Source: an uncultured Clostridia bacterium
GTDB taxonomy: Bacteria > Bacillota > Clostridia > Christensenellales > CAG-314
Direction of reading: 5' to 3'
NCBI GenBank assembly: GCA_937875645.1
Contig: CALLXO010000118.1
Coordinates: forward strand, 1 to 13,298
Length of the DNA: 13,298 bases
This document shows, in pieces, positions 235-12,617 of the stretch (position 1 is its first letter; every line of letters starts with the position of its first letter). The notes beneath the pieces were generated by a model. The model worked only from the letters and a program-made list of their open reading frames with translations. It searched no databases and was not told where the DNA came from. The position numbers and the translations under genes are program-made.

Positions 235-3200
235 ATGGTTTTTGAAATTTATGTTCAAAAAAAGCCCCAATACGCTAATGAAGCGAATTTTTTAAAGGAA
301 GAAATTAATAATCTGCTTAATATTAAAGCGGAGTCTTTACGCATCGTAAACAAATATAGCGTAGAGAATATTGACAAAAAGACCTTTGACAAATGCCGAG
401 CAACGGTTTTTAGCGAGCCGCAAACAGACGATGTTTTTGACGAGCTAATTTTAAACGAAAAGGAAAAAGCTTTTGCGGTACAAGCTTTAAGCGGGCAGTT
501 TGATCAGCGTGCCGATGGTGCAGAGCAATGTATTCAGTTTATTAGTCAGGGCGAGCGGCCTATCGTAAAGACAGCTAAGGTTTATATTTTTACTGGCATT
601 ACCGAAAAGCAAAAACAAAAGATTGCGCAATATGTGGTTAATCCTATCGAATGCAAGTTAACTGACTTAACGCACAGCGACACTTTGAAGGAAAAATTTG
701 TTATTCCTGTCAGCGTAAAGTCGCTAAAAGAGTTTAATTCTCTTGATGAAAACGCTTTAAAAGAATTTTCAAAAAAATACAATTTAGCGTTAGATTTAGC
801 TGACCTTTTATTTTGTCAACAGTACTTTAAAAGCATAAACAGACCGCCGACAATTACCGAAATTAAAGTTATTGATACTTATTGGAGCGACCATTGCCGC
901 CATACTACCTTTAATACAGTATTAGATAATATTGTTTTTGAAGACGATGACATAGAGGAAGAATATAAGCATTATCTGTCGGCACGTAGCGAGTTGGAGC
1001 GAGTTAAGCCAGTTAGCTTAATGGATTTAGGCACTATCGCCGCAAAATTGTTAAAAAAACGCGGACTGCTTACTCAACTTGACGAGAGCGACGAGATAAA
1101 TGCCTGCACTGTCAAAATAAAAGTCAATATAGATGGAAGCTACGAGCCGTGGCTATTGCTTTTTAAAAACGAGACGCATAACCATCCTACAGAGATAGAG
1201 CCTTTTGGGGGTGCTGCTACTTGCATAGGCGGCGCTATAAGAGACCCGCTGTCCGGCAGGGCATATGTTTATGCTGCTATGAGGATTTCTGGAGCGGGAA
1301 ACCCGCTGACTAAATTAGAGGACACTTTAAAGGGCAAACTTCCTCAGCGAAAAATTGTGACTACCGCCGCCAACGGTTACAGCAGTTACGGCAATCAAAT
1401 CGGGTTGGCGACAGGGTTAGCGGAGGAAATTTACCATGAGGGCTATGTCGCTAAGCATATGGAAGTAGGGGCAGTTATAGGCGCAGTTCCTCAAGCCAAT
1501 GTACGCCGCGAGACGCCCCATAAAGGGGACAGGGTTATTTTAATAGGCGGAAAAACGGGCAGAGACGGTTGCGGCGGTGCAACAGGCAGCAGCAAAAGCC
1601 ATGACAGCCAAAGTTTAACTCAGTGCGGAGCGGAAGTTCAAAAAGGCAACGCCGCCGAAGAACGAAAATTGCAAAGGCTTTTTCGCAACAAGCAAGCGAG
1701 TTTGCTGATTAAACGCTGCAACGATTTTGGCGCTGGCGGCGTATCTGTTGCAATTGGGGAATTAGCTGACGGATTAGATATTGACTTAAATGCCCTTCCT
1801 AAAAAGTACGAAGGGTTAGACGGGACGGAATTAGCTATAAGCGAATCACAGGAGCGCATGGCTGTTGTGGTGGAAGAAAAAAATGTAAAAACTTTTTTAG
1901 AATTAGCGCATAAGGAAAATTTAGAGGCTACCGTTGTTGCTACCGTGACAGACACAAAACGCTTAAAAATGAAATGGAACGGCAAATATATCGTAGATAT
2001 TGAACGAGAGTTTTTAGACACCAACGGAGTGGAAAAGCACGCTATCGCTAAAGTGGCGGCAGGAAATTGCTACCAAAAAACAATCGGTGACAGTTTTAAA
2101 GATAATTATCTTAAGCTGGTAGAGGATATAAACGTGTGTGGCAAACGTGGATTAGTAGAGCGTTTTGACAGCACGATAGGCAGCGGAACGGTAATAATGC
2201 CTTTTGGAGGGAAAACTCAACGTACGCCCTCCCAAGCTATGGTCAATAAAATCAGCGTAGAAAAAAAGCACACTAATACCGCAAGTGTGATGTCGTGGGG
2301 GTTTAACCCTTACATTTCGCAAAACAATCCTTTTGACGGAGGGTATTTAGCAGTTGTTGAAAGCGTAAGTAAATTAATTGCCACCGGCGCACAGTTTAAG
2401 GAAGTTTATTTGACTTTTCAAGAGTATTTTGAAAAACTTTCCAATGACCCCTTGCGTTGGGGAAAACCTGTTGCGTCGCTTTTAGGCGCATTTAAAGCAC
2501 AGAGGGAATTATCAATTGCGGCAATTGGCGGCAAAGACAGCATGAGCGGAAGTTTCAACAATTTGGATGTCCCCCCTACTCTTATTAGTTTTGCTGTTAC
2601 TACATTGTTAGCTAATGATGCCGTTGCCAACCATTTTAAAAAACCTTTGCATAAAGTTGTGGCATTACTGCCAAAAAAGGACAAGCGAGGGTTACCTAAA
2701 AGCGAAAGTCTTTTAAGCATATTTGATTGCGTAAATAGCTTATTAAGTACTCGCAGAGCGATTTCGGCATACACAGTTGTTTATGGCGGTATTGCAGAAG
2801 CGATCTTTAAAATGTGTTTAGGAAATGATTTGGGTTTTGAGTACGATGCAAAAGTCAACTTGCAGATGCTTTTTGAATATAACTACGGCGCTTTTGTTTT
2901 GGAACTTGATGATGATGTTTCCTTAGAGGAAAGGCAGAATAACTTTGACCTTTTGCCATTAGGAAATACAAATGCTGAAAAAACTTTAACTTACGGAAAT
3001 TGTCAAATTTCCACAGACGAGCTAATAAAAAATTACGAAGACAAATTAAAAGATATTTATGCTATTAGTCCCTCTTTAGCGCAAGCTAAACCTACAACAT
3101 ATAGTTTCTACGCTTCGGAAAGGACAAAACCTAAAAACAGACAGGAAAGGGTAAAGGTATTGATACCTGTTTTTCCCGGGACAAATTGCGAATACGATAC

Positions 3201-3948
3201 AGCAAAAGCATTTGCCGATGCAGGAGCAAACCCGCAAGTTTTTGTCATCAACAATTTGACGGCAAAGCATTTAAGCGAGAGTGTACGCAGTTTTGCTCAG
3301 CAGCTAAAAAATAGCCAAATTTTGTTTATTCCCGGCGGATTTAGCGGCGGCGACGAGCCGGACGGCAGCGGCAAATTTATAACGGCATTTTTACGCAACA
3401 ACGAAATAAGCGATGCGCTAAGTGACCTATTAGCAAACCGTGACGGACTGGTGGGCGGCATATGCAACGGTTTTCAGGCGCTTATTAAATTAGGGTTAGT
3501 GCCCTACGGTAAGATAAGGGATGCAAAAGCAGATTCACCCACCCTTACTTATAATTCCTTAGGGCGTCATCAGTCTAAAATTGTTAAAATAAGGATTTCC
3601 TCAAACAAGTCTCCGTGGCTTAGCGCAGTAAATGTCGGCGATATTTTTAACGTGCCAATTAGTCACGGCGAAGGGCGTTTTGTGGCAACGGAAAAAGAGA
3701 TAAAGGAAATGGCGAATAATGGGCAAATAGCAACGCAATACGTTGACAACAACGGAATGGTTAGCGGAAATATTCAATTTAACCCCAACGGAAGCGTTGA
3801 CGCTATTGAAGGCATAACTTCTTTTGACGGCAGAGTGTTTGGCAAAATGGGACATGCGGAACGTAAAGGCGAAAACCTTTATAGAAACGTAGAAGGCAAT
3901 TACGATATAAAAATGTTTGAAAGCGCAGTAAAATACTTTAAGATTTAA
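235..3948 (+). CDS. purL: Phosphoribosylformylglycinamidine synthase, single-chain form with fused glutaminase
   Basis: The 1237-residue protein converts FGAR, glutamine and ATP to FGAM (purine pathway step 4, cytoplasm). It has the length of the one-chain PurL found in Clostridia and streptococci, in which the PurS-like, PurL and PurQ parts are fused. Visible motifs, in order, are DTYWSDHCRHTTF at about residue 213, which belongs to the PurL core; ETHNHP at 313-318, followed by EPFGGAATCIGG; and the class I glutamine amidotransferase domain from about residue 1010. In that domain the nucleophile is Cys1077 in GGICNGFQ and the other catalytic residues are His1144 and Glu1146 in SHGEGRF. The protein ends with the typical FGKMGHAER segment. 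The start is supported by AAAGAGG at 223-229, five bases upstream of ATG. No catalytic motif is missing and the frame is intact. It probably lies in one operon with purD, and a terminator follows 20 bp after the stop. Confidence 0.97.
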   Translation: MVFEIYVQKKPQYANEANFLKEEINNLLNIKAESLRIVNKYSVENIDKKTFDKCRATVFSEPQTDDVFDELILNEKEKAFAVQALSGQFDQRADGAEQCIQFISQGERPIVKTAKVYIFTGITEKQKQKIAQYVVNPIECKLTDLTHSDTLKEKFVIPVSVKSLKEFNSLDENALKEFSKKYNLALDLADLLFCQQYFKSINRPPTITEIKVIDTYWSDHCRHTTFNTVLDNIVFEDDDIEEEYKHYLSARSELERVKPVSLMDLGTIAAKLLKKRGLLTQLDESDEINACTVKIKVNIDGSYEPWLLLFKNETHNHPTEIEPFGGAATCIGGAIRDPLSGRAYVYAAMRISGAGNPLTKLEDTLKGKLPQRKIVTTAANGYSSYGNQIGLATGLAEEIYHEGYVAKHMEVGAVIGAVPQANVRRETPHKGDRVILIGGKTGRDGCGGATGSSKSHDSQSLTQCGAEVQKGNAAEERKLQRLFRNKQASLLIKRCNDFGAGGVSVAIGELADGLDIDLNALPKKYEGLDGTELAISESQERMAVVVEEKNVKTFLELAHKENLEATVVATVTDTKRLKMKWNGKYIVDIEREFLDTNGVEKHAIAKVAAGNCYQKTIGDSFKDNYLKLVEDINVCGKRGLVERFDSTIGSGTVIMPFGGKTQRTPSQAMVNKISVEKKHTNTASVMSWGFNPYISQNNPFDGGYLAVVESVSKLIATGAQFKEVYLTFQEYFEKLSNDPLRWGKPVASLLGAFKAQRELSIAAIGGKDSMSGSFNNLDVPPTLISFAVTTLLANDAVANHFKKPLHKVVALLPKKDKRGLPKSESLLSIFDCVNSLLSTRRAISAYTVVYGGIAEAIFKMCLGNDLGFEYDAKVNLQMLFEYNYGAFVLELDDDVSLEERQNNFDLLPLGNTNAEKTLTYGNCQISTDELIKNYEDKLKDIYAISPSLAQAKPTTYSFYASERTKPKNRQERVKVLIPVFPGTNCEYDTAKAFADAGANPQVFVINNLTAKHLSESVRSFAQQLKNSQILFIPGGFSGGDEPDGSGKFITAFLRNNEISDALSDLLANRDGLVGGICNGFQALIKLGLVPYGKIRDAKADSPTLTYNSLGRHQSKIVKIRISSNKSPWLSAVNVGDIFNVPISHGEGRFVATEKEIKEMANNGQIATQYVDNNGMVSGNIQFNPNGSVDAIEGITSFDGRVFGKMGHAERKGENLYRNVEGNYDIKMFESAVKYFKI

Positions 3949-3993: not shown

Positions 3994-4108
3994 ATTATTT
4001 TGGTTTAAAAAAACAAGAATCAAGATTAAAATTGAAGGATTATTTATTTTTTTATTTATTATTATTTAAATAAATACACTATTGTGAAAACATTAAAAAA
4101 GTCGAAAA

Positions 4109-4155
4109 ATACAACATATTGTATTAAAAGAAAAAAATTTCACAAAATGTAGATA
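4109..4155 (+). promoter_or_regulatory. Candidate NrdR box pair upstream of nrdD
   Basis: ATACAACATATTGTAT at 4109-4124 is a near-perfect palindrome and agrees at 13 of 16 positions with the NrdR box ACACAATATATTGTGT as I remember it. A weaker box can be read at 4140-4155; its left half, CACAAAATGT, fits, but its right half is poor. The two start 31 bp apart with a 15-bp linker, the usual spacing of paired NrdR boxes, about three helical turns. Both lie just upstream of the -35 element of the nrdD promoter. NrdR is an ATP-cone repressor that senses dATP/ATP and represses ribonucleotide reductase genes in most bacteria. The first box is well supported by sequence; the second is inferred largely from spacing. 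Confidence 0.6.
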
Positions 4156-4288: not shown

Positions 4289-6667
4289 ATGTTTAAGGTA
4301 AAAAAGAGAGACGGAAAGATTGTTGATTTCAATCTTAAAAAAATAAGAGACGCTGTTGAGCGTGCTTTTGTCGCCGTCGACCGTAATTATACCGAAGATA
4401 TTTTAGACACGGTAGCTTTAAAAGTTACGGCACAATTTAACGAAAAAATTAATAACGGCGTTGTTACTGTAGAGGATATTCAGGACTCTGTCGAAGTGGT
4501 GCTGATTCAATCGGGTTTTGTAGATGTAGCAAAAGCTTACATCTTGTATCGCAAACAGCACGAAAAAATCCGCAATATGAAGTCGACAATAGTGGACTAT
4601 GCCGATACTGTCAACAATTACTTAAAAATAAACGATTGGCGTGTTAAGGAAAACAGCACTGTTACTTACAGCGTGGGCGGTCTTATTTTAAGCAACAGCG
4701 GCGCAATCACTGCTAATTATTGGTTGAGCGAAATTTACGATGACGAAATTGAAAAAGCGCACCGCAATGCCGACATTCATATTCATGATTTATCAATGCT
4801 AACTGGTTATTGTGCAGGCTGGTCACTTAAGCAACTAATAAAAGATGGTTTAGGCGGCATACCCGGCAAAATAACAAGTAGTCCGGCAAGTCACTTATCC
4901 ACCCTTTGCAATCAGATGGTAAACTTTTTAGGCATTATGCAAAATGAATGGGCAGGAGCGCAAGCTTTTTCCTCCTTTGATACATACCTTGCCCCCTTTG
5001 TAAAAGCAGATAAGTTAAATTATAAGGAAGTAAAACAATGCATTCAATCTTTTGTTTACGGCGTAAACACTCCCAGCCGTTGGGGTACGCAAGCGCCTTT
5101 TACAAATATAACGTTGGATTGGGTTGTATCGGACGATTTAGCTGAGTTAAACGCACTTGTGGGCGGCAAAGAGCAGGATTTTAAATATAAAGACTGCGTT
5201 CAGGAAATGGCTATGATAAATAAGGCGTTTATCGAAATTATGATTGAGGGAGATGCAAATGGCAGAGGATTTCAATATCCTATCCCGACATATAGCATAA
5301 CAAAAGATTTTGACTGGTCTGAGACGGAAAATAATAGGCTGTTGTTTGAAATGACAGCAAAATACGGCACTCCCTATTTTAGCAATTATGTAAACAGTGA
5401 TATGGAACCAAGCGATGTTAGAAGTATGTGTTGTAGGCTTCGCCTTGACTTAAGGGAGCTTCGCAAAAAAAGCGGCGGCTATTTTGGCAGCGGCGAAAGC
5501 ACCGGCAGTATTGGCGTTGTGACAATTAATATGCCGCGTATAGCTTATATGGCAAGTTCGCAAAAGGAATTTTTTGCACGGCTCGAAAAAATAATGAATA
5601 TATCGGCACGTAGCTTAAAGATAAAGCGAGATGTAATCACTAAGTTGTTAAATGAAGGTTTATATCCTTATACCAAACGTTACTTAGGTACTTTTGACAA
5701 CCATTTTTCCACAATAGGTCTATTGGGGATGAATGAAGCTTGCCTAAACGCCAAATGGATTGGTAAAGATCTAACAGATAAAGAAGCACAGCAATTTACT
5801 AAGGAAACACTCAATTTTATGCGGGAAAAACTTTCCGACTATCAGGAAAAATACGGCAATTTATACAATCTTGAAGCTACACCTGCGGAATCGACCTCGT
5901 ATAGATTAGCTAAACACGACAAGACACGTTATCCTGATATAATTACCGCAAGCGAAGGGGTAAGTGATGTGCCTTATTATACAAACAGCAGTCATTTGCC
6001 AGTAGGGTATACCGAAGACATTTTTTCCGCTTTAGATATTCAGGACGAATTGCAGACGCTATATACTTCGGGCACAGTTTTCCACGCGTTTTTAGGACAA
6101 AAAATAAGCGATTGGCGATCGGCTGCTAATTTAGTGCGAAAAATTGCCGAAAACTACCATTTGCCTTATTATACTTTAAGTCCTACTTACAGCGTTTGCC
6201 AAGACCACGGCTATTTAGCGGGGGAAGTTTATAAATGCCCCACATGCGAAAGAAAGACGGAGGTATACAGCCGAATAACAGGTTATTACCGTCCTGTGCA
6301 AAATTGGAATGACGGCAAGGTAGAGGAATTTAAAGAGCGCAAGGTTTATAATATAGAAAAATCTGTTTTAAAGGACAAAAAGAGTTGCGATGATACAGTG
6401 GCAACGCAAGTTAACGGAAAAAGCGAAAAAATTAGTCAACCTATGTTGTTTACCAGTGCGACTTGCCCTAATTGTAAAATGGCAAAAAGCATATTAGACA
6501 AGGCAAATATTAGTTATACTTCTTTAGACGCAATGGACAATAAGGAAATTTCTAACAAATATAACGTTACAAAAGCGCCCACATTGCTGGTGCCTTCTAG
6601 TGACGGACTAATAAGATACGAAAATGCAAGTGAAATAAAGAGATATGTTGAGGGACTTAATGGCTGA
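4289..6667 (+). CDS. nrdD: Anaerobic (class III) ribonucleoside-triphosphate reductase with fused C-terminal glutaredoxin-like domain
   Basis: The 792-residue protein makes deoxyribonucleotides from NTPs with a glycyl radical. Residues 1 to about 90 form the ATP-cone allosteric domain (VKKRDGKIVDFNLKKIRDAV). The ten-stranded barrel follows, with YCAGWSLKQLI and MCCRLRLDLREL as cysteine-containing active-site segments. The zinc site near the radical domain appears to be Cys637, His640, Cys650 and Cys653. The radical motif is RITGYYRP, with Gly665 as the expected radical residue. After a linker (about 680-714), residues 715-792 form a redoxin domain with the Cys726-Pro-Asn-Cys729 active site and the cis-proline Pro764 in KAPTLLV. 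This extension is absent from the E. coli enzyme, which uses formate. TAAGGAGG at 4276-4283 fixes the start. The gene overlaps the downstream reductase by 8 bp. The activase NrdG, needed to form the radical, is not in the window. Confidence 0.96.
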   Translation: MFKVKKRDGKIVDFNLKKIRDAVERAFVAVDRNYTEDILDTVALKVTAQFNEKINNGVVTVEDIQDSVEVVLIQSGFVDVAKAYILYRKQHEKIRNMKSTIVDYADTVNNYLKINDWRVKENSTVTYSVGGLILSNSGAITANYWLSEIYDDEIEKAHRNADIHIHDLSMLTGYCAGWSLKQLIKDGLGGIPGKITSSPASHLSTLCNQMVNFLGIMQNEWAGAQAFSSFDTYLAPFVKADKLNYKEVKQCIQSFVYGVNTPSRWGTQAPFTNITLDWVVSDDLAELNALVGGKEQDFKYKDCVQEMAMINKAFIEIMIEGDANGRGFQYPIPTYSITKDFDWSETENNRLLFEMTAKYGTPYFSNYVNSDMEPSDVRSMCCRLRLDLRELRKKSGGYFGSGESTGSIGVVTINMPRIAYMASSQKEFFARLEKIMNISARSLKIKRDVITKLLNEGLYPYTKRYLGTFDNHFSTIGLLGMNEACLNAKWIGKDLTDKEAQQFTKETLNFMREKLSDYQEKYGNLYNLEATPAESTSYRLAKHDKTRYPDIITASEGVSDVPYYTNSSHLPVGYTEDIFSALDIQDELQTLYTSGTVFHAFLGQKISDWRSAANLVRKIAENYHLPYYTLSPTYSVCQDHGYLAGEVYKCPTCERKTEVYSRITGYYRPVQNWNDGKVEEFKERKVYNIEKSVLKDKKSCDDTVATQVNGKSEKISQPMLFTSATCPNCKMAKSILDKANISYTSLDAMDNKEISNKYNVTKAPTLLVPSSDGLIRYENASEIKRYVEGLNG

Positions 6668-7589
6668 AAGTTTTGATATTATTATTGTAGGTGCTGGGAC
6701 GGCGGGAATGACCGCCGCCCTTTATGCCCTGCGTAACGGAAAAAGCGTTTTAATACTCGAAAAGGATACCTTTGGTGGGCAGATAGCGTTAAGCCCCAAG
6801 GTGGAAAATTTTCCCACACAAAAAACCATTAGCGGCGCAGAGTTTTCCGATATTATGTTTGAGCAGATTACTCAGCTTGGTGTAAAGGCAGAGTTAGAAA
6901 AGGTAGAGAGCATAACAAAAACGCCGACAGGTTTTTTTGTGACTACCGATTATAATACTTATACGGCTAAAAGCATTATTTTGGCTACCGGCGTAAAACA
7001 CCGCCAAATTGGGGTGCTAGGTGAAGAGGAACTTGTAGGAAAAGGCGTAAGCTATTGCGCTACTTGTGACGGGCCATTTTTTGCAGGAGAGGAAGTGGTG
7101 GTAATAGGCGACGCAAACACTGCGTTGCAATATAGCATTATGCTAACCGGTTATTGCAAAAAGGTTACCGTCTGCACGTTGTTTGACAATTTTTTTGGAG
7201 AGTCGCATTTGGTACGTACATTAAAAAGCAAACCAAATGTCGAAATTTTCCATAATTTAAATTTACAGCAGTTTTTTAGCAAAGACGGTTATCTAACCGG
7301 TTTGCGTTTTGAAAAAACCGACAGCGGCGAAAGCAAAATATTTGATACAAGAGCGGTATTTATCTGCGTGGGGCAGATGTCTGACAATGCTGTGTTTGAA
7401 AAACTAGTTAACTTAGATAAAAACGGTTTTATTGTGGCAAATGAGGAATGCAAAACATCACGAAAGGGGGTTTATGCCGCAGGAGACTGCCGTACAAAAA
7501 AAGTGAGACAGCTTACCACCGCTGCCGCAGACGGAGCGGCTGCCGCATTGGCGGCTTGCTCATACCTTGACAGTTTAGATGCTAGTTAA
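6660..7589 (+). CDS. trxB: Thioredoxin-reductase-like flavoprotein lacking NADPH-binding signatures
   Basis: The 309-residue protein has the low-molecular-weight thioredoxin reductase fold: an N-terminal FAD site (VGAGTAG, residues 10-16), a redox-active Cys133-Ala-Thr-Cys136 followed by Asp, and the second FAD motif AAGDC...RQLTTAAADGAAAA near the C-terminus. In the nucleotide domain, where TrxB has GGGDSA, this protein has GDANTA at 150-155, and the HRRxxxR motif that grips NADPH is absent (VTVCTLFDNFFGES instead). Loss of both is the hallmark of the ferredoxin-dependent flavin thioredoxin reductases known from clostridia. I therefore infer ferredoxin or another donor rather than NADPH. I chose ATG 6660, which overlaps the nrdD stop (ATGGCTGA) and follows GAGGGA; an in-frame ATG at 6645 would add five residues. 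Coupling to nrdD suggests that it reduces the fused redoxin domain. Confidence 0.9.
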   Translation: MAESFDIIIVGAGTAGMTAALYALRNGKSVLILEKDTFGGQIALSPKVENFPTQKTISGAEFSDIMFEQITQLGVKAELEKVESITKTPTGFFVTTDYNTYTAKSIILATGVKHRQIGVLGEEELVGKGVSYCATCDGPFFAGEEVVVIGDANTALQYSIMLTGYCKKVTVCTLFDNFFGESHLVRTLKSKPNVEIFHNLNLQQFFSKDGYLTGLRFEKTDSGESKIFDTRAVFICVGQMSDNAVFEKLVNLDKNGFIVANEECKTSRKGVYAAGDCRTKKVRQLTTAAADGAAAALAACSYLDSLDAS

Positions 7590-7785: not shown

Positions 7786-7813
7786 TTAGGGGATGATCAT
7801 CCTAAAAATTAGG
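7786..7813 (+). promoter_or_regulatory. Nested palindrome upstream of the subtilase gene
   Basis: GGATGATCATCC at 7791-7802 is a perfect 12-bp palindrome. TTAGG (7786-7790) can also pair with CCTAA (7801-7805), and that same CCTAA can instead pair with TTAGG at 7809-7813. It lies just after a possible but weak promoter (TTGATA 7761-7766, 15 bp, TATATT 7782-7787), so it would cover the transcription start. It could be an operator or a leader hairpin. Apart from this and the preceding terminator, the 251-bp gap 7590-7840 holds nothing I recognise. The subtilase RBS, AAGGAGG, ends six bases before ATG 7841. Confidence 0.4.
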
Positions 7814-7840
7814 CGTTATACGCAAAAAAGGAGGATATGT

Positions 7841-9689
7841 ATGAACAAGGTAAAAAATTTTGGCAGCATGTTTTTATTGCTGTTGTTGGTTACTGTTTTA
7901 GTCCTGCAATTGACGGGAGTCGGTGCTGTTTTTGCAAATTCAACGGAAAATAGCGTTTCAAAAGCAATGATGCAGAAAGGTGAAATCGTTACCAAGACGT
8001 TGGGCGAAAAAACACTTTCTCAAGATATGCTTAATAGAATGGAAAAGCTGTCTAATGAAGAGACCTTGCCGGTAGCTGTTTGGAGAAAGGGCATAGAGCA
8101 GGACGATTTAGAAAGAAATGTTGCACAAACAGGATTTGGTATAAAGTCATGTAGCAGCATGTTTGCCAACGCAAAAGCATAACGCAAAATAACATTATAG
8201 ATGCTGTAAACTCTATCAGTCAAAATAGAGACCAATACAAAAATATCAGATTAAACAGCATAGAGAAATTGACGGCGGACAACAATCGTAACTTTATGGG
8301 AAAGTACTCCTTGACGGATAACAAAATTTATTACAAAAGCAAATATACTTCCACCTTAATAATGGATTTGACAAAAGAAGAGATTAGTACACTTATGGCG
8401 GATGAAGAGGTTTTGGATATTACTTATTTTGAAGACCTTATCTGTCAACCTGATACATGGGCGGCAGTGGACCAAATAAGAGCGGCAAAAGGTACGGCAT
8501 CAAAACCGGGGCTTAAACATTCTTCCTTTGGAGGACTGACAGGGGTAGGAATAAAAATAGGGATAATAGAAGCAAACGGCGGCAGATACGACCCAGAAAA
8601 CAGACAGCTTAAGCCCAAGCATACCGACGGGACATTATCCTTTGTGCCTGTTCCGGGGGTAAGCTGTTTCGCCCTTATGTAGAAGGTGTCGCCACAGGGG
8701 CTACAGTTTATCAGTCAGGTATAGTCACAGCCACCGATTGTTTAACAGCATTTACTCAGTTTGCGTCTTTAGGAGTGGATGTAATTAATTATAGCGCCGG
8801 CTCAGCAACTGATTCTTACAGTTGGTTTGATAAGGAAATTGATAATCTAATTTATCAAACAAAAATCGTTTTTGTAAAATCAGCGGGCAACAGGGGAGCA
8901 ACTGACGGCAATGTAACAAGTCCGGGTAAAGCGTACAATGCTATTACAGTAGGTTCGGTAGAGTCAAAAAGCGACTATTATTCCAAAATAAATCCGCCTT
9001 ACAACGTAAGTCCAACTTCCAGTTATAACGTGCCCTCCTTTTTGACCAACAAACCGGAGGTTGTAGCACCGGGGGCTAACATTATTTTAAATGTAACGTT
9101 ATTTGCAAGTATAGGAGGCTCAGGCACAAGCTTTGCCGCGCCGTTGGTTACCGGTGTAATTGCGCAGCTTATGCAAAAAACAAAACCCTATATTGACAGG
9201 GAAAATTATGTTACATATTATAAGGCAATTTTAATGGTAGGGGCGGAGGACGATTTAGTAAGGGATAGTTCTGTTCGACCTTCTGACCCAGCCTCCTTCC
9301 ACAACAAGGGCGGAGCAGGTCTTGTCAATGGCATAAACAGCGCTATTTGCGGCGAATTGCAGATTTATTGTAAACTTTACGAGATGTATAGCTATGGCTA
9401 TATGGCTTTCCCCTATCACACTTCTTACTCTCCTTTTAGAGCGGCATTAGTGTTTGAAAAGCCGGAAAATATGTATATCGAAGATGTATACGACAATAAT
9501 TTCGATTTGGCTTTAATAAGAGCAAGCACCAGATTGGAAATTGCATCCTCTCGGTCAATAGTTAACAATTTTGAGATATTAGAGTCTGCTTGGCCGGGAG
9601 ACGGAGAAGTTCTTTTAGGTTTTCAAACACGGTCCATAATACCCTCTAATCTGTATATGTCTGTTTCGGTAGTTTGGCGAGCCATTTAA
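7841..9689 (+). pseudogene. Secreted S8 family serine peptidase (subtilase), broken by two frameshifts
   Basis: Three consecutive reading frames make one protease of roughly 616 residues. Part one (7841-8182) begins after AAGGAGG with a signal peptide (MNKVKNFGSMFLLLLLVTVL...VFA|NS) and a propeptide. Part two (about 8183-8682) continues the propeptide, which ends in an inhibitor-I9-like segment (LIMDLTKEEISTLMADEEV), and enters the catalytic domain at GVGIKIGIIEANGG. Part three (from about 8660) holds YVEGVATGATVYQSG, the oxyanion Asn in SAGNRG and the nucleophile Ser in GTSFAAP (codon 9129-9131), then a C-terminal beta-rich region to 9689. Both breaks have the same sign, as if one base were lost. 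Adding one A to the A4 run at 8173-8176 and one G to the G5 run at 8655-8659 restores one open frame. The usual catalytic Asp appears as Glu in IIEANGG, and the HGT motif is not clearly recognisable, with H8620-TDGT the only candidate. Confidence 0.82.
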
Positions 9690-9772: not shown

Positions 9773-10450
9773 CTAATTAGCCGATAACATTTTTTCCAAA
9801 ATTTGCTGTTTGATGGGAGAAGTTTGTCCGTAATTACGTACGGGATTGCCGTTAAGTTTTACATCATAAACAATACTGCCTTTATCCATTATAACCACTC
9901 TGTTTGCCAAAAGGAATGCTTCCTCAATGTCGTGAGTCACATATAATACCGTCCTTTTTTCCTTTTGCCAAATGTCGTAAAAAGCGTTAATCAAACGTAA
10001 TTTTAACGCTGTATCTAAGGAAGAAAAAGGCTCGTCCATCAATAATAATTGTGAGGGAAACAAAAACGCTCTTGCAATGGCTGCTCTTTGCGCTTGGCCG
10101 CCGCTTATTGCGCGTGGATATTTGTCTGCTTTGGCGGAGATTTCCAACATATCCAACATGCCGTCAATTTTGTGATAATCCGCTTCAGCTAAAACGTATT
10201 GTAAATTTTGCTTGACAGTAAGGTTAGGCAAAAGTAATTCGTGCTGAAAAATATAAGATACTTTGCCATTAAAACCTTCAATACTGCCTTCATACGGCGT
10301 TATACCTGCAATTATGTTTAACAAGGTGGTTTTTCCACAACCGCTTGCTCCTAAAATGCAAGTGATAGAATTTTTCTCTATTATTAGGTTTAAATTATCC
10401 AACACCTTTATGTCGCCGTAATTTTTTGATATATTTTTTAGTTTAATCAT
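9773..10450 (-). CDS. ABC transporter ATP-binding protein, NitT/TauT (SsuB/TauB) type
   Basis: The 225-residue nucleotide-binding subunit energises import at the inner face of the membrane. All motifs are present: Walker A GASGCGKT (34-41), Q-loop Gln69 in IFQHELLLP, signature SGGQAQR (116-122), Walker B LLLMDEP with Glu140, the D-loop SSLD, and switch His173 in VTHD. The FQHELLLP variant and short length fit the nitrate/sulfonate/taurine-type importer family, but the ATPase does not reveal the substrate. Its ATG overlaps the permease stop in ATGATTAA and is preceded by AAGGTGG, so translation is coupled to the permease. It is the last gene of the minus-strand operon, followed by a terminator. 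Confidence 0.92.
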   Translation of the reverse strand: MIKLKNISKNYGDIKVLDNLNLIIEKNSITCILGASGCGKTTLLNIIAGITPYEGSIEGFNGKVSYIFQHELLLPNLTVKQNLQYVLAEADYHKIDGMLDMLEISAKADKYPRAISGGQAQRAAIARAFLFPSQLLLMDEPFSSLDTALKLRLINAFYDIWQKEKRTVLYVTHDIEEAFLLANRVVIMDKGSIVYDVKLNGNPVRNYGQTSPIKQQILEKMLSAN

Positions 10451-11213
10451 TTTGCCACCTTATACTAATTTTCCCTATATACCTGATAGTGCTTTCAAAA
10501 AATACGCCCACTATTATTGCTGCTAAAGTAAGCGCAAACAGTTTTGTTGGCTCAATATTGATTTTTGCAAACTGCATAAGTTTACCGATACTGTGCATTG
10601 TTTGCGCCAAAGCTTCGGCGGCTATGACTAATTTTATGTTAAGGCTGAAACCGCTTGCGGTGTTTTCAAACATAGATTTAGCCATATTAGGCAAATAAAG
10701 CTTTTTAATTATGTCTTTGTTGCTGACGCCGTAAACTTTACTCATCATAAGCAAATTTTTATCAACGGAGTCAATTGCGCCGTAAAAAGCCGAATAAAGA
10801 GTAGGAAAAATTACTATTATTGCAACGGCAATGGGTGCGGCAGACGGTGACAACCAGATAATAAGTAGCAGTATTACCGACATAGTGGGTATCGAACGTA
10901 TAATTGCGGTAAAAGGACTAATTAGTTTTTTTGCCCTTGTGTTTACTGCGCTCAAAACGGCAAAAAGCAAAGCGATTATAAAGCTAAATGCAAAGGATAT
11001 AAGCGAACGCAGTAATGTGCCGCCTAACGAAATCCAAAAATCCTTTTCACCAAGATAATCCAAAAGCTGTTTAAATGCGTCAAGGGGAGAAGGCAAAATT
11101 AAGTCGACGTTAAGCAAAAGGGACGCTATTTGCCAAATGACTAACACCAAAAGTGTCACAAACAGCGGATAGGACAAATCTATTAATAGTTTTTTTATTC
11201 TTTTGTTATCCAT
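10443..11213 (-). CDS. ABC transporter permease, NitT/TauT (SsuC/TauC) type
   Basis: The 256-residue membrane subunit has about six hydrophobic segments, the clearest at about 15-35, 66-90, 104-121, 124-146 and 226-246. The EAA loop that contacts the ATPase is SKVYGVSNKDIIKKL (158-172), which differs from the classic EAA..G sequence but keeps the central glycine in the right place. The IILPSPLDAFKQL-like start (LILPSPLDAF, 38-47) is typical of SsuC/TauC permeases. It forms the translocation channel for the substrate delivered by the upstream lipoprotein. The start ATG at 11213 follows the binding protein stop by 29 bp, with only a weak upstream AAGG as ribosome binding site. The 3' end overlaps the ATPase gene by 8 bp. 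Confidence 0.9.
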   Translation of the reverse strand: MDNKRIKKLLIDLSYPLFVTLLVLVIWQIASLLLNVDLILPSPLDAFKQLLDYLGEKDFWISLGGTLLRSLISFAFSFIIALLFAVLSAVNTRAKKLISPFTAIIRSIPTMSVILLLIIWLSPSAAPIAVAIIVIFPTLYSAFYGAIDSVDKNLLMMSKVYGVSNKDIIKKLYLPNMAKSMFENTASGFSLNIKLVIAAEALAQTMHSIGKLMQFAKINIEPTKLFALTLAAIIVGVFFESTIRYIGKISIRWQND

Positions 11214-11242
11214 AAAGGGTAATTACCTTAATTTTTGTTTTG

Positions 11243-12214
11243 TTAAGCAGCATAGAAAAAGCCGTCGTCAATAGTGGTAGTTGTTTCCAGCCGTCCAATA
11301 TAATCCATTACAGAACTTTTTATATCTTGAGCGCTAACAAATCGAATGTTGCTGTTAGTTATGGTATCTGCCGTAAAGGTCATATTTTGAAGATTGCTGT
11401 CAAAACGGGCAAAAAGGGCAGGAAGGTCAGAATAATTCTGCTGCAAAAATTCGGTATTGTCTTTTAACGCTGCCAATAATTTGCCGATATATTTTGAATT
11501 GTTTTTGCAAAACTCTTCTGTTGCGATAAGCGACGCTTGCGGATAACCTTCAAATTCTGTGATTTTCTGCCATTCTGCTTGAAAATCCACAACGGTAACT
11601 ATATTTGTTATTAGTTGTTTGCTTCTGGTAACTTGCGGCTCACCTAACACCCCATAAGCCTCGGTGCTTTTGATGGATGCTTGTTTAAGTAACGGAATAA
11701 TAGTCCCTGCGTCAGAATAGGAGGATAAAGCTACTTTTCCCTCAACGCTCTGTGCACCTTCCACATATTCAATTTGATTTTCTGTCAAAAGATACTTAAA
11801 AAGAGATATTGTCGTGCCCACCGTCGTGTAGACGACTTTTCCCTTTAATCCCTCAAAATCTGTTGCACTATTGTTGACGCCCATAATAAAAAGGTTGCCG
11901 AAAATATTAGTGGATAACAGTTTTATTTTAGCGCCCTTACTGTATAATTTTGCAGCTACCACGGTAGGCATAACGGCAATATCTGCATCGTCATTAAAAG
12001 CCGCGCTTATGTTGTCAGCAGGTACAATATTAAAAGTTGTTATTTTGTTGCTAAAGTTAGCATTGTTGTCCATTATGTTGGCTAACGCTAAAGCGGGCGT
12101 GCCGTCAGGCAGATAAATCTTTATGCTGTTGTCGGAACACGCAGAGATGCCAAAGACCGTAGTAATCAATACTACTGCTAAAATTAGTACCGAAATAGTT
12201 TTTAATTGTTTCAT
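11243..12214 (-). CDS. ABC transporter substrate-binding lipoprotein, NitT/TauT type
   Basis: The 323-residue protein has a lipoprotein signal peptide: MKQLK, a hydrophobic stretch, then the lipobox GISAC with Cys26 as the lipidated residue. The mature protein would therefore be anchored outside the membrane, where it captures substrate for the permease. The mature start, IKIYLPDGTPALALANIM, and the segment ADIAVMPTVVAAKLYSKGAKIKLL resemble periplasmic-binding-protein-like II proteins of the nitrate/sulfonate/NMT1 group. I cannot deduce the ligand; this group binds sulfonates, pyrimidines, aromatic compounds and others. AAGGAG lies about eight bases upstream of ATG 12214. The gap to the TM1266-family gene is only 29 bp, with no terminator, so both belong to one transcript. 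Confidence 0.88.
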   Translation of the reverse strand: MKQLKTISVLILAVVLITTVFGISACSDNSIKIYLPDGTPALALANIMDNNANFSNKITTFNIVPADNISAAFNDDADIAVMPTVVAAKLYSKGAKIKLLSTNIFGNLFIMGVNNSATDFEGLKGKVVYTTVGTTISLFKYLLTENQIEYVEGAQSVEGKVALSSYSDAGTIIPLLKQASIKSTEAYGVLGEPQVTRSKQLITNIVTVVDFQAEWQKITEFEGYPQASLIATEEFCKNNSKYIGKLLAALKDNTEFLQQNYSDLPALFARFDSNLQNMTFTADTITNSNIRFVSAQDIKSSVMDYIGRLETTTTIDDGFFYAA

Positions 12215-12243
12215 ATATATTCTCCTTTTTTATTTTTCCCTAA

Positions 12244-12498
12244 TTAAATCTTAGAAAACAGCGTTTTAGCCGACACACCCTGTAGCATGCCTAATTTTCC
12301 CGTTAAGCTGTTGATAATTTCTGTGGGAGCGTCCAATACCACGCTCATAACGCTGACGTTTTTTGAGTGGTAGGGGATACCCATGCGTCCCACAATATAT
12401 TGTCCGCAAGCACTTAGTAAATTATTAATTTTTTCCGCAGCGGCCAAGTCCTCTACAATAATACTAATTAGCGCAACTCTGTTTTGTTCGCTTCGCAT
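12244..12498 (-). CDS. TM1266-family small protein, putative regulator of the iron-only hydrogenase system
   Basis: The 84-residue product matches the TM1266 family along its whole length: RVALISIIVEDLAAAEKIN, then YIVGRMGIPYHSKNVSVMSVVLDAP and a final LTGKLGMLQGVSAKT. These are small ACT-like/NikR-C-like proteins usually found with [FeFe]-hydrogenase and its maturases HydE, HydF and HydG; the regulatory role is assumed from that company rather than shown. I chose ATG 12498 because the family begins here and AAAGGAGG (12513-12506) lies seven bases upstream. An in-frame ATG at 12567 would add 23 residues unlike the family. No hydrogenase or maturase gene lies in the window. It is the first gene of an operon with the ABC transporter and is preceded by an unusual hairpin that contains its own RBS. 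Confidence 0.9.
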   Translation of the reverse strand: MRSEQNRVALISIIVEDLAAAEKINNLLSACGQYIVGRMGIPYHSKNVSVMSVVLDAPTEIINSLTGKLGMLQGVSAKTLFSKI

Positions 12499-12617
12499 TA
12501 AAAAACCTCCTTTGGTAGCCAAAGGAGGTAACAAAAATTTATATCGGCTTTTTGCCGAAAAATCCATATGTTTACGTCCTTTGCGGTCAGGCGTACCTTT
12601 CCGTTTAGCAACCTTAC
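12499..12617 (-). promoter_or_regulatory. Structured 5' leader of the TM1266/ABC transporter operon, possible riboswitch or attenuator
   Basis: The leader runs about 119 nt from the predicted start (near 12617) to the ATG. Upstream of the terminal hairpin it can fold into a small stem at 12603-12584 (CGG, AA, AGG, loop TACG, CCT, GA, CCG, with AA opposite GA as an internal loop) and a stem TCGGC-AAAAA-GCCGA at 12558-12544. GGTTGC near 12613 could pair imperfectly with GTTACC at 12532-12527, which overlaps the 5' arm of the terminal hairpin and would compete with it. No riboswitch class is recognised with confidence. An upstream in-frame ATG at 12567 with AAAGG before it could also let ribosomes enter this region. 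Confidence 0.5.
12505..12529 (-). terminator. Hairpin before the TM1266-family gene: terminator or RBS sequestrator
   Basis: Read on the minus strand, ACCTCCTTTGG (12529-12519), loop CTA and CCAAAGGAGGT (12515-12505) form a perfect 11-bp stem. A run of six T residues (12505-12500) follows, and the ATG is at 12498. This has the form of a Rho-independent terminator, yet its 3' arm contains the Shine-Dalgarno AAAGGAGG of the gene it precedes. When folded it would stop transcription or hide the RBS; the operon would be expressed only when the hairpin is prevented. Confidence 0.72.

Follow-up and report, generated by a model that had tools for sequence, protein, structure and literature searches.

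The stretch of DNA analysed here (the window, 13,298 nucleotides, contig CALLXO010000118.1, or C118, of an uncultured bacterium of the class Clostridia and the order Christensenellales) carries two overlapping genes, nrdD, which encodes a class III ribonucleotide reductase (RNR) with a redoxin domain at its C-terminal end, and a gene for a flavoprotein of the thioredoxin reductase (TrxR or TrxB) type. On balance we favour the view that together they form a self-contained module for the anaerobic synthesis of deoxyribonucleotides (dNTPs), in which NrdD is fed by its own redoxin and the reductase has come off NADPH, with a low-potential carrier as its likely donor. What appears to be new is that the flavoproteins linked to nrdD are one clade inside the NADPH-type TrxBs, apart from the ferredoxin-dependent flavin thioredoxin reductases (FFTRs), and that in the window's subclade, judged by sequence, a strongly conserved motif occupies the old NADPH pocket. 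The reductase looks dedicated to RNR, but it is no FFTR. The observations come from the window's own genome (assembly of 1.216 Mb in 274 contigs, 82% complete), from a survey of 245 genomes drawn evenly across the class, own genome counted in, and from a second set taken from a named genome collection, of which the best 80 of at least 591 matching stretches were used; the genomes of the survey and of the second set may overlap in species.

The nrdD gene (4289..6667, forward strand, like all features of the module) encodes 792 residues (PF13597, E 7.5e-191; NF006126, 1129.7 bits against a cut-off of 548), which begin with an ATP-cone domain (residues 3-92, 4295..4564; PF03477, E 1.2e-22) and continue with the NRDD catalytic domain, matched by profile over residues 121-687. 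The features that define a class III RNR are all present, namely the NRDD domain, a strand-A cysteine, a finger-loop cysteine and a C-terminal glycyl-radical motif. The strand-A active-site residue is Cys175 (4811..4813), by alignment the equivalent of Cys125 of T. maritima (PMC4493059, in part); Glu529 (5873..5875) aligns with the proton donor Glu495 of T. maritima, a position named in a passage of PMC9669993; and Gly665 (6281..6283), within RITGY, is the predicted glycyl-radical site. These three residues are invariant in an alignment of 43 sequences. The finger loop, Met380-Cys381-Cys382-Arg383 (5426..5437), has the double-cysteine MCCR motif of a class described in the same passage, and its third cysteine, together with the active-site Glu, corresponds to the NrdD2 subtype as an excerpt of PMC4493059 defines it. 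Neither the NrdD3 subtype (third cysteine, no Glu; QCCR/A) nor the formate-only NrdD1 (single-cysteine MGCR loop, no Glu) agrees with an MCCR loop accompanied by Glu529. Burnim et al. (PMC9669993, in the text available) regard Met plus a double Cys in the finger loop as the components for either formate or thioredoxin, and Glu without Met as the mark of enzymes that likely use thioredoxin alone, so that by these criteria the reductant class of the window NrdD is ambiguous. The SMCCR loop was found in all 49 NrdD loci examined, of which 38 are fused and 11 unfused, and the Glu529 motif in 50 of 50 NrdDs (the same loci and the window); since both occur in fused and unfused enzymes alike, neither tracks the redoxin fusion.

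The original prediction placed a redoxin at the C-terminal end of NrdD, with Cys726, Cys729 and a cis-Pro764, and all three positions are found in the sequence. The catalytic domain is followed by a linker (about residues 688-716, 6350..6436) whose length varies among relatives and whose AlphaFold2 confidence (pLDDT) falls below 50 at 698-712, and then by the redoxin domain (residues 717-791, 6437..6661; PF00462, E 1.2e-7 over 719-757), with CPNC at 726-729 and the codons of Cys726, Cys729 and Pro764 at 6464-6466, 6473-6475 and 6578-6580. In the structure prediction, which had been suggested as a check, the last 75 residues take up a thioredoxin-like beta-alpha order (E719-722, H727-738, E744-747, H752-757, E765-770, E773-778, H780-791) at a pLDDT of approximately 73-91 (61 for the final two residues). 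The domain thus has the thioredoxin fold and CxxC of a glutaredoxin or NrdH-like protein, and a proline whose cis state is presumed from its position. The CxxC of the redoxin end is present in all 39 fused NrdDs inspected, window included.

A search among proteins, in which 7999 NrdD candidates were scored, found PF00462 on 118 of the 120 matches listed, the exceptions being P0002, with PF00085 instead, and P0101, with no redoxin domain listed. The survey that had been proposed as a further check gives a fused NrdD in 44 of the 245 genomes: 39 hold a full-length NrdD of at least 65% identity that reaches the redoxin end, four (G186, G200, G049 and G139) hold it in pieces that include this end, and in G128 contig ends interrupt it, a separate contig carrying its redoxin end, which runs open to the edge, together with the flavoprotein. 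In a tree of the catalytic part (LG+G4 without mixture, for which the program warned of long branches meeting at the base), the 39 fused rows and two redoxin-less ones form a clade with support of 100/100, on which the unfused state needs two changes. The two redoxin-less NrdDs (L050 and L051, in G035 and G244) are relatives of 72-74% identity that lie inside the fused clade, and the best flavoprotein match in those genomes is only 36-38% identical.

The flavoprotein gene lies downstream, at -14 to +165 nucleotides (nt), in 24 of the 38 fused loci fetched; with the window added the count is 25 of 39, or 25 of the 38 that are testable (the contig of L026 ends about 257 nt past nrdD), and this adjacency needs at least five changes on the NrdD tree. 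In the unfused relatives of approximately 50% identity that were inspected (L052-L060, part of those listed), nrdG2 stands directly downstream of nrdD in 9 of 9, so that the reductase occupies the usual nrdG slot, as had been predicted, and in most fused loci (26 of 38) nrdG2 is still adjacent, on the upstream side. The window has no such adjacent nrdG2. The idea that nrdG is missing from the own genome was rejected: contig C183 carries an activase of the NrdG2 type (TIGR02495, 203 bits against a cut-off of 131). One NrdD was found in this genome. Upstream of nrdD, at 4076-4122, there are two palindrome-like AT-rich stretches, acactattgtga and acaacatattgt, spaced by about 35 bp, which by eye may be NrdR boxes.

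The second gene (6660..7589) encodes a TrxB-like flavoprotein of 309 residues that scores 293.9 bits against TIGR01292, below the curated cut-off of 343.45. As predicted, it overlaps nrdD by 8 bp (6660-6667); its ATG at 6660 is preceded by GAGGGA at 6650-6655, and a longer open reading frame would begin at 6645, although the start at 6660 agrees with relatives. The sequence also bears out the motifs attributed to it. The FAD motifs are kept and GAGTAG is present, as are the redox-active cysteines of CATC (C133/C136, 7056..7067); GDANTA (residues 150-155, 7107..7124) replaces the nucleotide-binding loop GGGxSA/GGGxTA, and TLFDNFF (residues 173-179, 7176..7196) stands in place of HRRxxxR, which in E. 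coli TrxB reads HRRDGFR. In the window's subclade, counted over the window and 119 relatives among the matches listed, both cysteines are kept in 120 of 120, GDxN is found in 120 (GDAN in 85, GDGN in 35) and HRRxxxR in none, and the Trx-docking GxG and F[FY] (named as in an excerpt of PMC9025218) are retained. Where HRRxxxR was, the subclade has [TAM][LWM][FMG]D[KRNH][FL]F, with a conservation per column of 0.95, 0.88, 0.90, 1.00, 0.71, 0.97 and 1.00 against a mean of 0.71 for the protein, which argues that the replaced pocket is not the product of drift. Taken together, the CxxC of all 39 redoxins and the constancy of GDxN and of the missing HRRxxxR in all 120 flavoproteins imply that this architecture is no chance feature. 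In the other flavoproteins linked to nrdD, GGGN[ST]A is combined with Q[ND]LxxxT, and four (L024, L031, L041 and L104) retain HRRxxFR.

The ancestry of the flavoprotein was followed in a tree of 72 rows, from which the motif columns were dropped and the long-branched T. acidophilum enzyme was excluded. The 27 linked flavoproteins (25 adjacent ones, window included, L104, next to a piece of redoxin where a contig ends, and L105 about 1.1 kb away) form one group, with support of 94/82, in 92% of 200 bootstrap trees, and this clade, together with 14 unlinked members of the family, is nested within NADPH-type TrxB. The FFTRs are a separate clade (100/100) with the window flavoprotein outside it, and a quick tree of all columns (73 rows) recovers the same linked and FFTR groups with support of 93 and 100. 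The original prediction had likened the flavoprotein to the clostridial ferredoxin-dependent family, of which by this tree it is not a member. Among solved chains the flavoprotein matches 4zn0 (E 1.3e-60), T. acidophilum TrxR 3cty (8e-60) and 7aaw (1e-57), and 6gnc at only 1e-34. In fold searches NADPH-TrxRs were among the matches listed, and the absence of 6gnc and 6gna from the 50 rows listed for each carries no weight.

An identity of the flavoprotein with the clostridial FFTR was therefore rejected, the tree separating the two and the FFTR-like protein of the own genome being a different one, L002 on contig C72, which matches 6gnc at E 3.6e-76 and its best NADPH-TrxR, 4gcm, at E 2e-31. We take 6gnc and 6gna to be clostridial FFTRs; the listing names 6gnc only as a thioredoxin reductase. 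The gene of L002 (1498-2427) lies between genes that by eye are NAD-synthetase-like and TilS-like. Further TrxB-like proteins were seen in other genomes. In four order members of 0.8-0.9 Mb (L110-L113, in G005, G171, G100 and G044) the second TrxB also lacks HRRxxxR and is of a [SC]K[YN]PxLK type, so that the matches found in these genomes include no canonical NADPH-TrxB; L114 and L115 (G103 and G173), which have GSSAHA and likewise lack HRRxxxR, belong to a further clade that the tree places away from FFTR.

The loss of the motif goes with linkage to nrdD. Within the family, HRRxxxR is lost in 23 of the 27 linked members against none of the 14 unlinked ones, all of which retain HRRxxFR. The six-row group of the window has as its sister L024 (98/94), which keeps the motif, and another keeper, L031, falls among the QNL type, from which it follows that the motif was lost at least twice, or lost and then regained, with three changes of state within the family. 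In the second set, where "kept" also covers variants such as HRRxxFK and NRSxxFK, loci with nrdD within 400 nt have lost the motif in 34 cases and kept it in 9, and those with nrdD farther away have lost it in 2; with trxA within 300 nt it is lost in none and kept in 12, and in the remaining loci it is lost in 7 and kept in 16. One reductase that is linked to nrdD and keeps HRR is that of Ruminococcus turbiniformis (L205). Two of the seven remaining loci with the motif lost are L185, whose contig starts inside an nrdD of the fused type, and L236, which has HRRDKLT; a search of the whole genomes of the other five found a full-length fused NrdD in three, one in pieces with a redoxin match, and none in G247. 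The same search in three of the 12 trxA-linked genomes with HRR, taken from the top of the list, found no fused-type NrdD (0 of 3). These counts treat loci without regard to kinship, and the tree offers only one independent pair.

In the mechanism proposed here, NrdD would reduce ribonucleotides (NTPs) by glycyl-radical chemistry, and each turnover would leave a disulfide between Cys175 and a finger-loop cysteine. The tethered redoxin (Cys726/Cys729) would swing back over its flexible linker of approximately 30 residues to reduce this disulfide, and would itself be re-reduced, through FAD and C133/C136, by the flavoprotein, a descendant of NADPH-thioredoxin reductase that would have been recruited to NrdD and would no longer take NADPH. 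A low-potential carrier, for instance ferredoxin charged by pyruvate- or 2-oxoacid:ferredoxin oxidoreductase (POR), would be the most likely source of electrons in the lineage of the window. Of this scheme, the domain architecture, the linkage, the descent and the replacement of the motif are established here, as are POR-family genes and an NrdG2 elsewhere in the genome. The transfer from redoxin to NrdD is suggested by the fusion and by the precedent of F. ignava (PMC6187632, in part), and a transfer from flavoprotein to redoxin would complete it. As for the earlier statement that the reductase seems not to use NADPH, the loss of the 2'-phosphate motif stands, and the non-use of NADPH is something that we infer rather than observe; the replacement of the motif under strong conservation makes it quite probable. 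Ferredoxin as the actual donor is put forward with reserve. More cautiously still, we suggest that NADPH-TrxB gave rise, by a route separate from that of FFTR, to an RNR-dedicated reductase whose NADPH site disappeared in two or more sublineages, and that this reductase passes electrons from ferredoxin or another low-potential carrier to the redoxin tethered to NrdD, so that dNTPs would be made in these gut Clostridia without NADPH or formate.

The metabolic context was examined in six module-bearing genomes of the window's order (its own 82% complete, the others 98-100%). Pyruvate formate-lyase (PFL)-like enzymes were found in 0 of 6, formate-tetrahydrofolate ligase in 2 of 6 and a thioredoxin in 6 of 6, while a POR domain was present in all eight genomes searched, these six among them. 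A TrxB above the curated TRX_reduct cut-off was found in none of the six, which have a fused NrdD, against 12 of 14 controls.

Several considerations weigh against the module as read above. One is that formate may feed NrdD while the role of redoxin and reductase is limited to its protection or reactivation, as by holding the finger-loop cysteines in the reduced state, an explanation that we consider unlikely. By published criteria formate use stays conceivable for the window enzyme, since the finger-loop Met is present and an MCCR loop with Met is described as fit for formate or thioredoxin (PMC9669993, in part); PFL-like enzymes are present in both module-bearing genomes checked outside the order, so that their lack is not general, and the ligase occurs in two order members. 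Formate also arises from peptide deformylation, and the absence of PFL is therefore weak evidence. What speaks against a formate-fed NrdD is that the redoxin CxxC is retained although no PFL-like enzyme was found in any of the six order members with the module, and that Glu529 is present where 8p23, which we take to be the formate-using enzyme of Prevotella copri, aligns Leu. The ancestry is a second difficulty: grouping with NADPH-TrxB had been named beforehand as an outcome against the prediction, and the flavoprotein does group there by descent, though not by motif. It could then be an ordinary nrdD-linked TrxR that still uses NADPH in an altered binding mode, the more so as 4 of the 27 linked members retain HRRxxxR; the conserved, mostly hydrophobic motif at the HRR and R positions, the Asp in the glycine loop and the TIGR01292 score below the cut-off make this improbable. 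Of the 14 unlinked keepers, 6 belong to genomes with a fused NrdD (G200, G085, G058, G135, G158 and G232).

Another possibility, the main competitor though in our judgement the less likely one, is that the loss of HRRxxxR removed only recognition of the 2'-phosphate, and that NADH delivers its hydride to the flavin and from there to the tethered redoxin. The TrxR of T. acidophilum has no HRRxxxR; at first considered independent of pyridine nucleotides, it later proved to work with NADH (PMC6262447, in part). GGGN[ST]A is retained in 28 of the 34 HRR-less nrdD-adjacent members of the second set, and a formal GxGxxA (GDGNTA) occurs in 35 of the 120 proteins of the window's subclade. In that subclade, however, the column of the E. 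coli HRR His is never acidic (Thr 114, Ala 4, Met 2), whereas T. acidophilum TrxR has Glu there, and the glycine loop has an invariant Asp and, in 85 of 120, Ala for its middle Gly. Least probable of all is that the two genes are neighbours by chance, the flavoprotein being the general TrxR of the cell and the fused redoxin being reduced by any TrxR. Fused NrdDs do occur without a flavoprotein neighbour, and in G213 the flavoprotein is the only strong TrxB-like match beside a separate thioredoxin and may serve both; against this stand the recurrent linkage, the single clade, a lost motif tied to fused NrdD and not to trxA, and the separate FFTR-like protein of the own genome.

The rest of the window adds purL (235-3948), the first gene in the order purL, nrdD, flavoprotein gene. 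Farther downstream (7793-9689, forward strand) two shorter open reading frames without family match are followed by a subtilase-like region (8775-9689, PF00082), which may reflect either an interrupted gene for an S8 peptidase or a fault of the assembly. On the reverse strand, 9773-12567 holds an SsuABC/NMT1-like ABC transporter (ATPase, permease and binding protein) and, adjoining it, a TM1266-family putative regulator of the iron-only hydrogenase system (12247-12567). An Rfam scan of the window gave no match at gathering scores.

The module bears on the question of how NrdDs with a finger-loop Met and a double cysteine are reduced, and, as an internal reductant with an adjacent reductase, it would be tractable as a pair of proteins. 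Should ferredoxin prove to be the donor, a large group of gut fermenters would couple the making of dNTPs directly to 2-oxoacid oxidation. In addition, the reductase clade, with HRRxxxR-bearing and HRRxxxR-less members at one operon position, would offer a natural series on the change of electron donor.

Several known systems resemble parts of this arrangement. The F. ignava study indicates that an RNR component can be reduced by a redoxin fused to it, and it listed one nrdD fusion in 2018; it concerns a class I RNR with glutathione, and the part of it available mentions neither a partner reductase nor a broad clade of nrdD fusions (PMC6187632). Beyond that fusion, a search of the open-licence literature on ferredoxin-dependent TrxR with RNR and on nrdD redoxin fusions gave, in the text available, no account of this module. 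The NrdD2-type enzymes of Neisseria bacilliformis and T. maritima share the double-cysteine finger loop and the active-site Glu with the window NrdD, and the disulfide of the former is reduced by a thioredoxin-fold protein (PMC9669993, in part), although their loop is SCCR and that of the window is MCCR, with the redoxin in the same chain. In NrdD3 of M. barkeri, an NrdH-like redoxin feeds a class III RNR with electrons from ferredoxin. This enzyme is said, in work by Wei from 2015, to operate with NrdH and a ferredoxin:disulfide reductase. That reductase is reportedly an Fe-S protein, in contrast to a flavoprotein of the TrxB type, and the redoxin is not known to be fused. The enzyme itself has QCCR/A and no Glu, according to a passage of PMC9669993, as opposed to MCCR and Glu529. 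The FFTRs (6gnc/6gna; C. difficile TrxB1, PMC10880999, in part) share with the window flavoprotein the TrxB fold, the CxxC and the lost NADPH motif, and an excerpt of PMC12796991 gives a flavin potential near -448 mV for that of Gloeobacter; they differ in forming a clade of their own. T. acidophilum TrxR (3cty), presumably not linked to RNR, is likewise a TrxB without HRRxxxR, with 38% identity to the window flavoprotein in the structure match. It is NADH-dependent (PMC6262447, in part) and has Glu at the position where the window flavoprotein has Thr.

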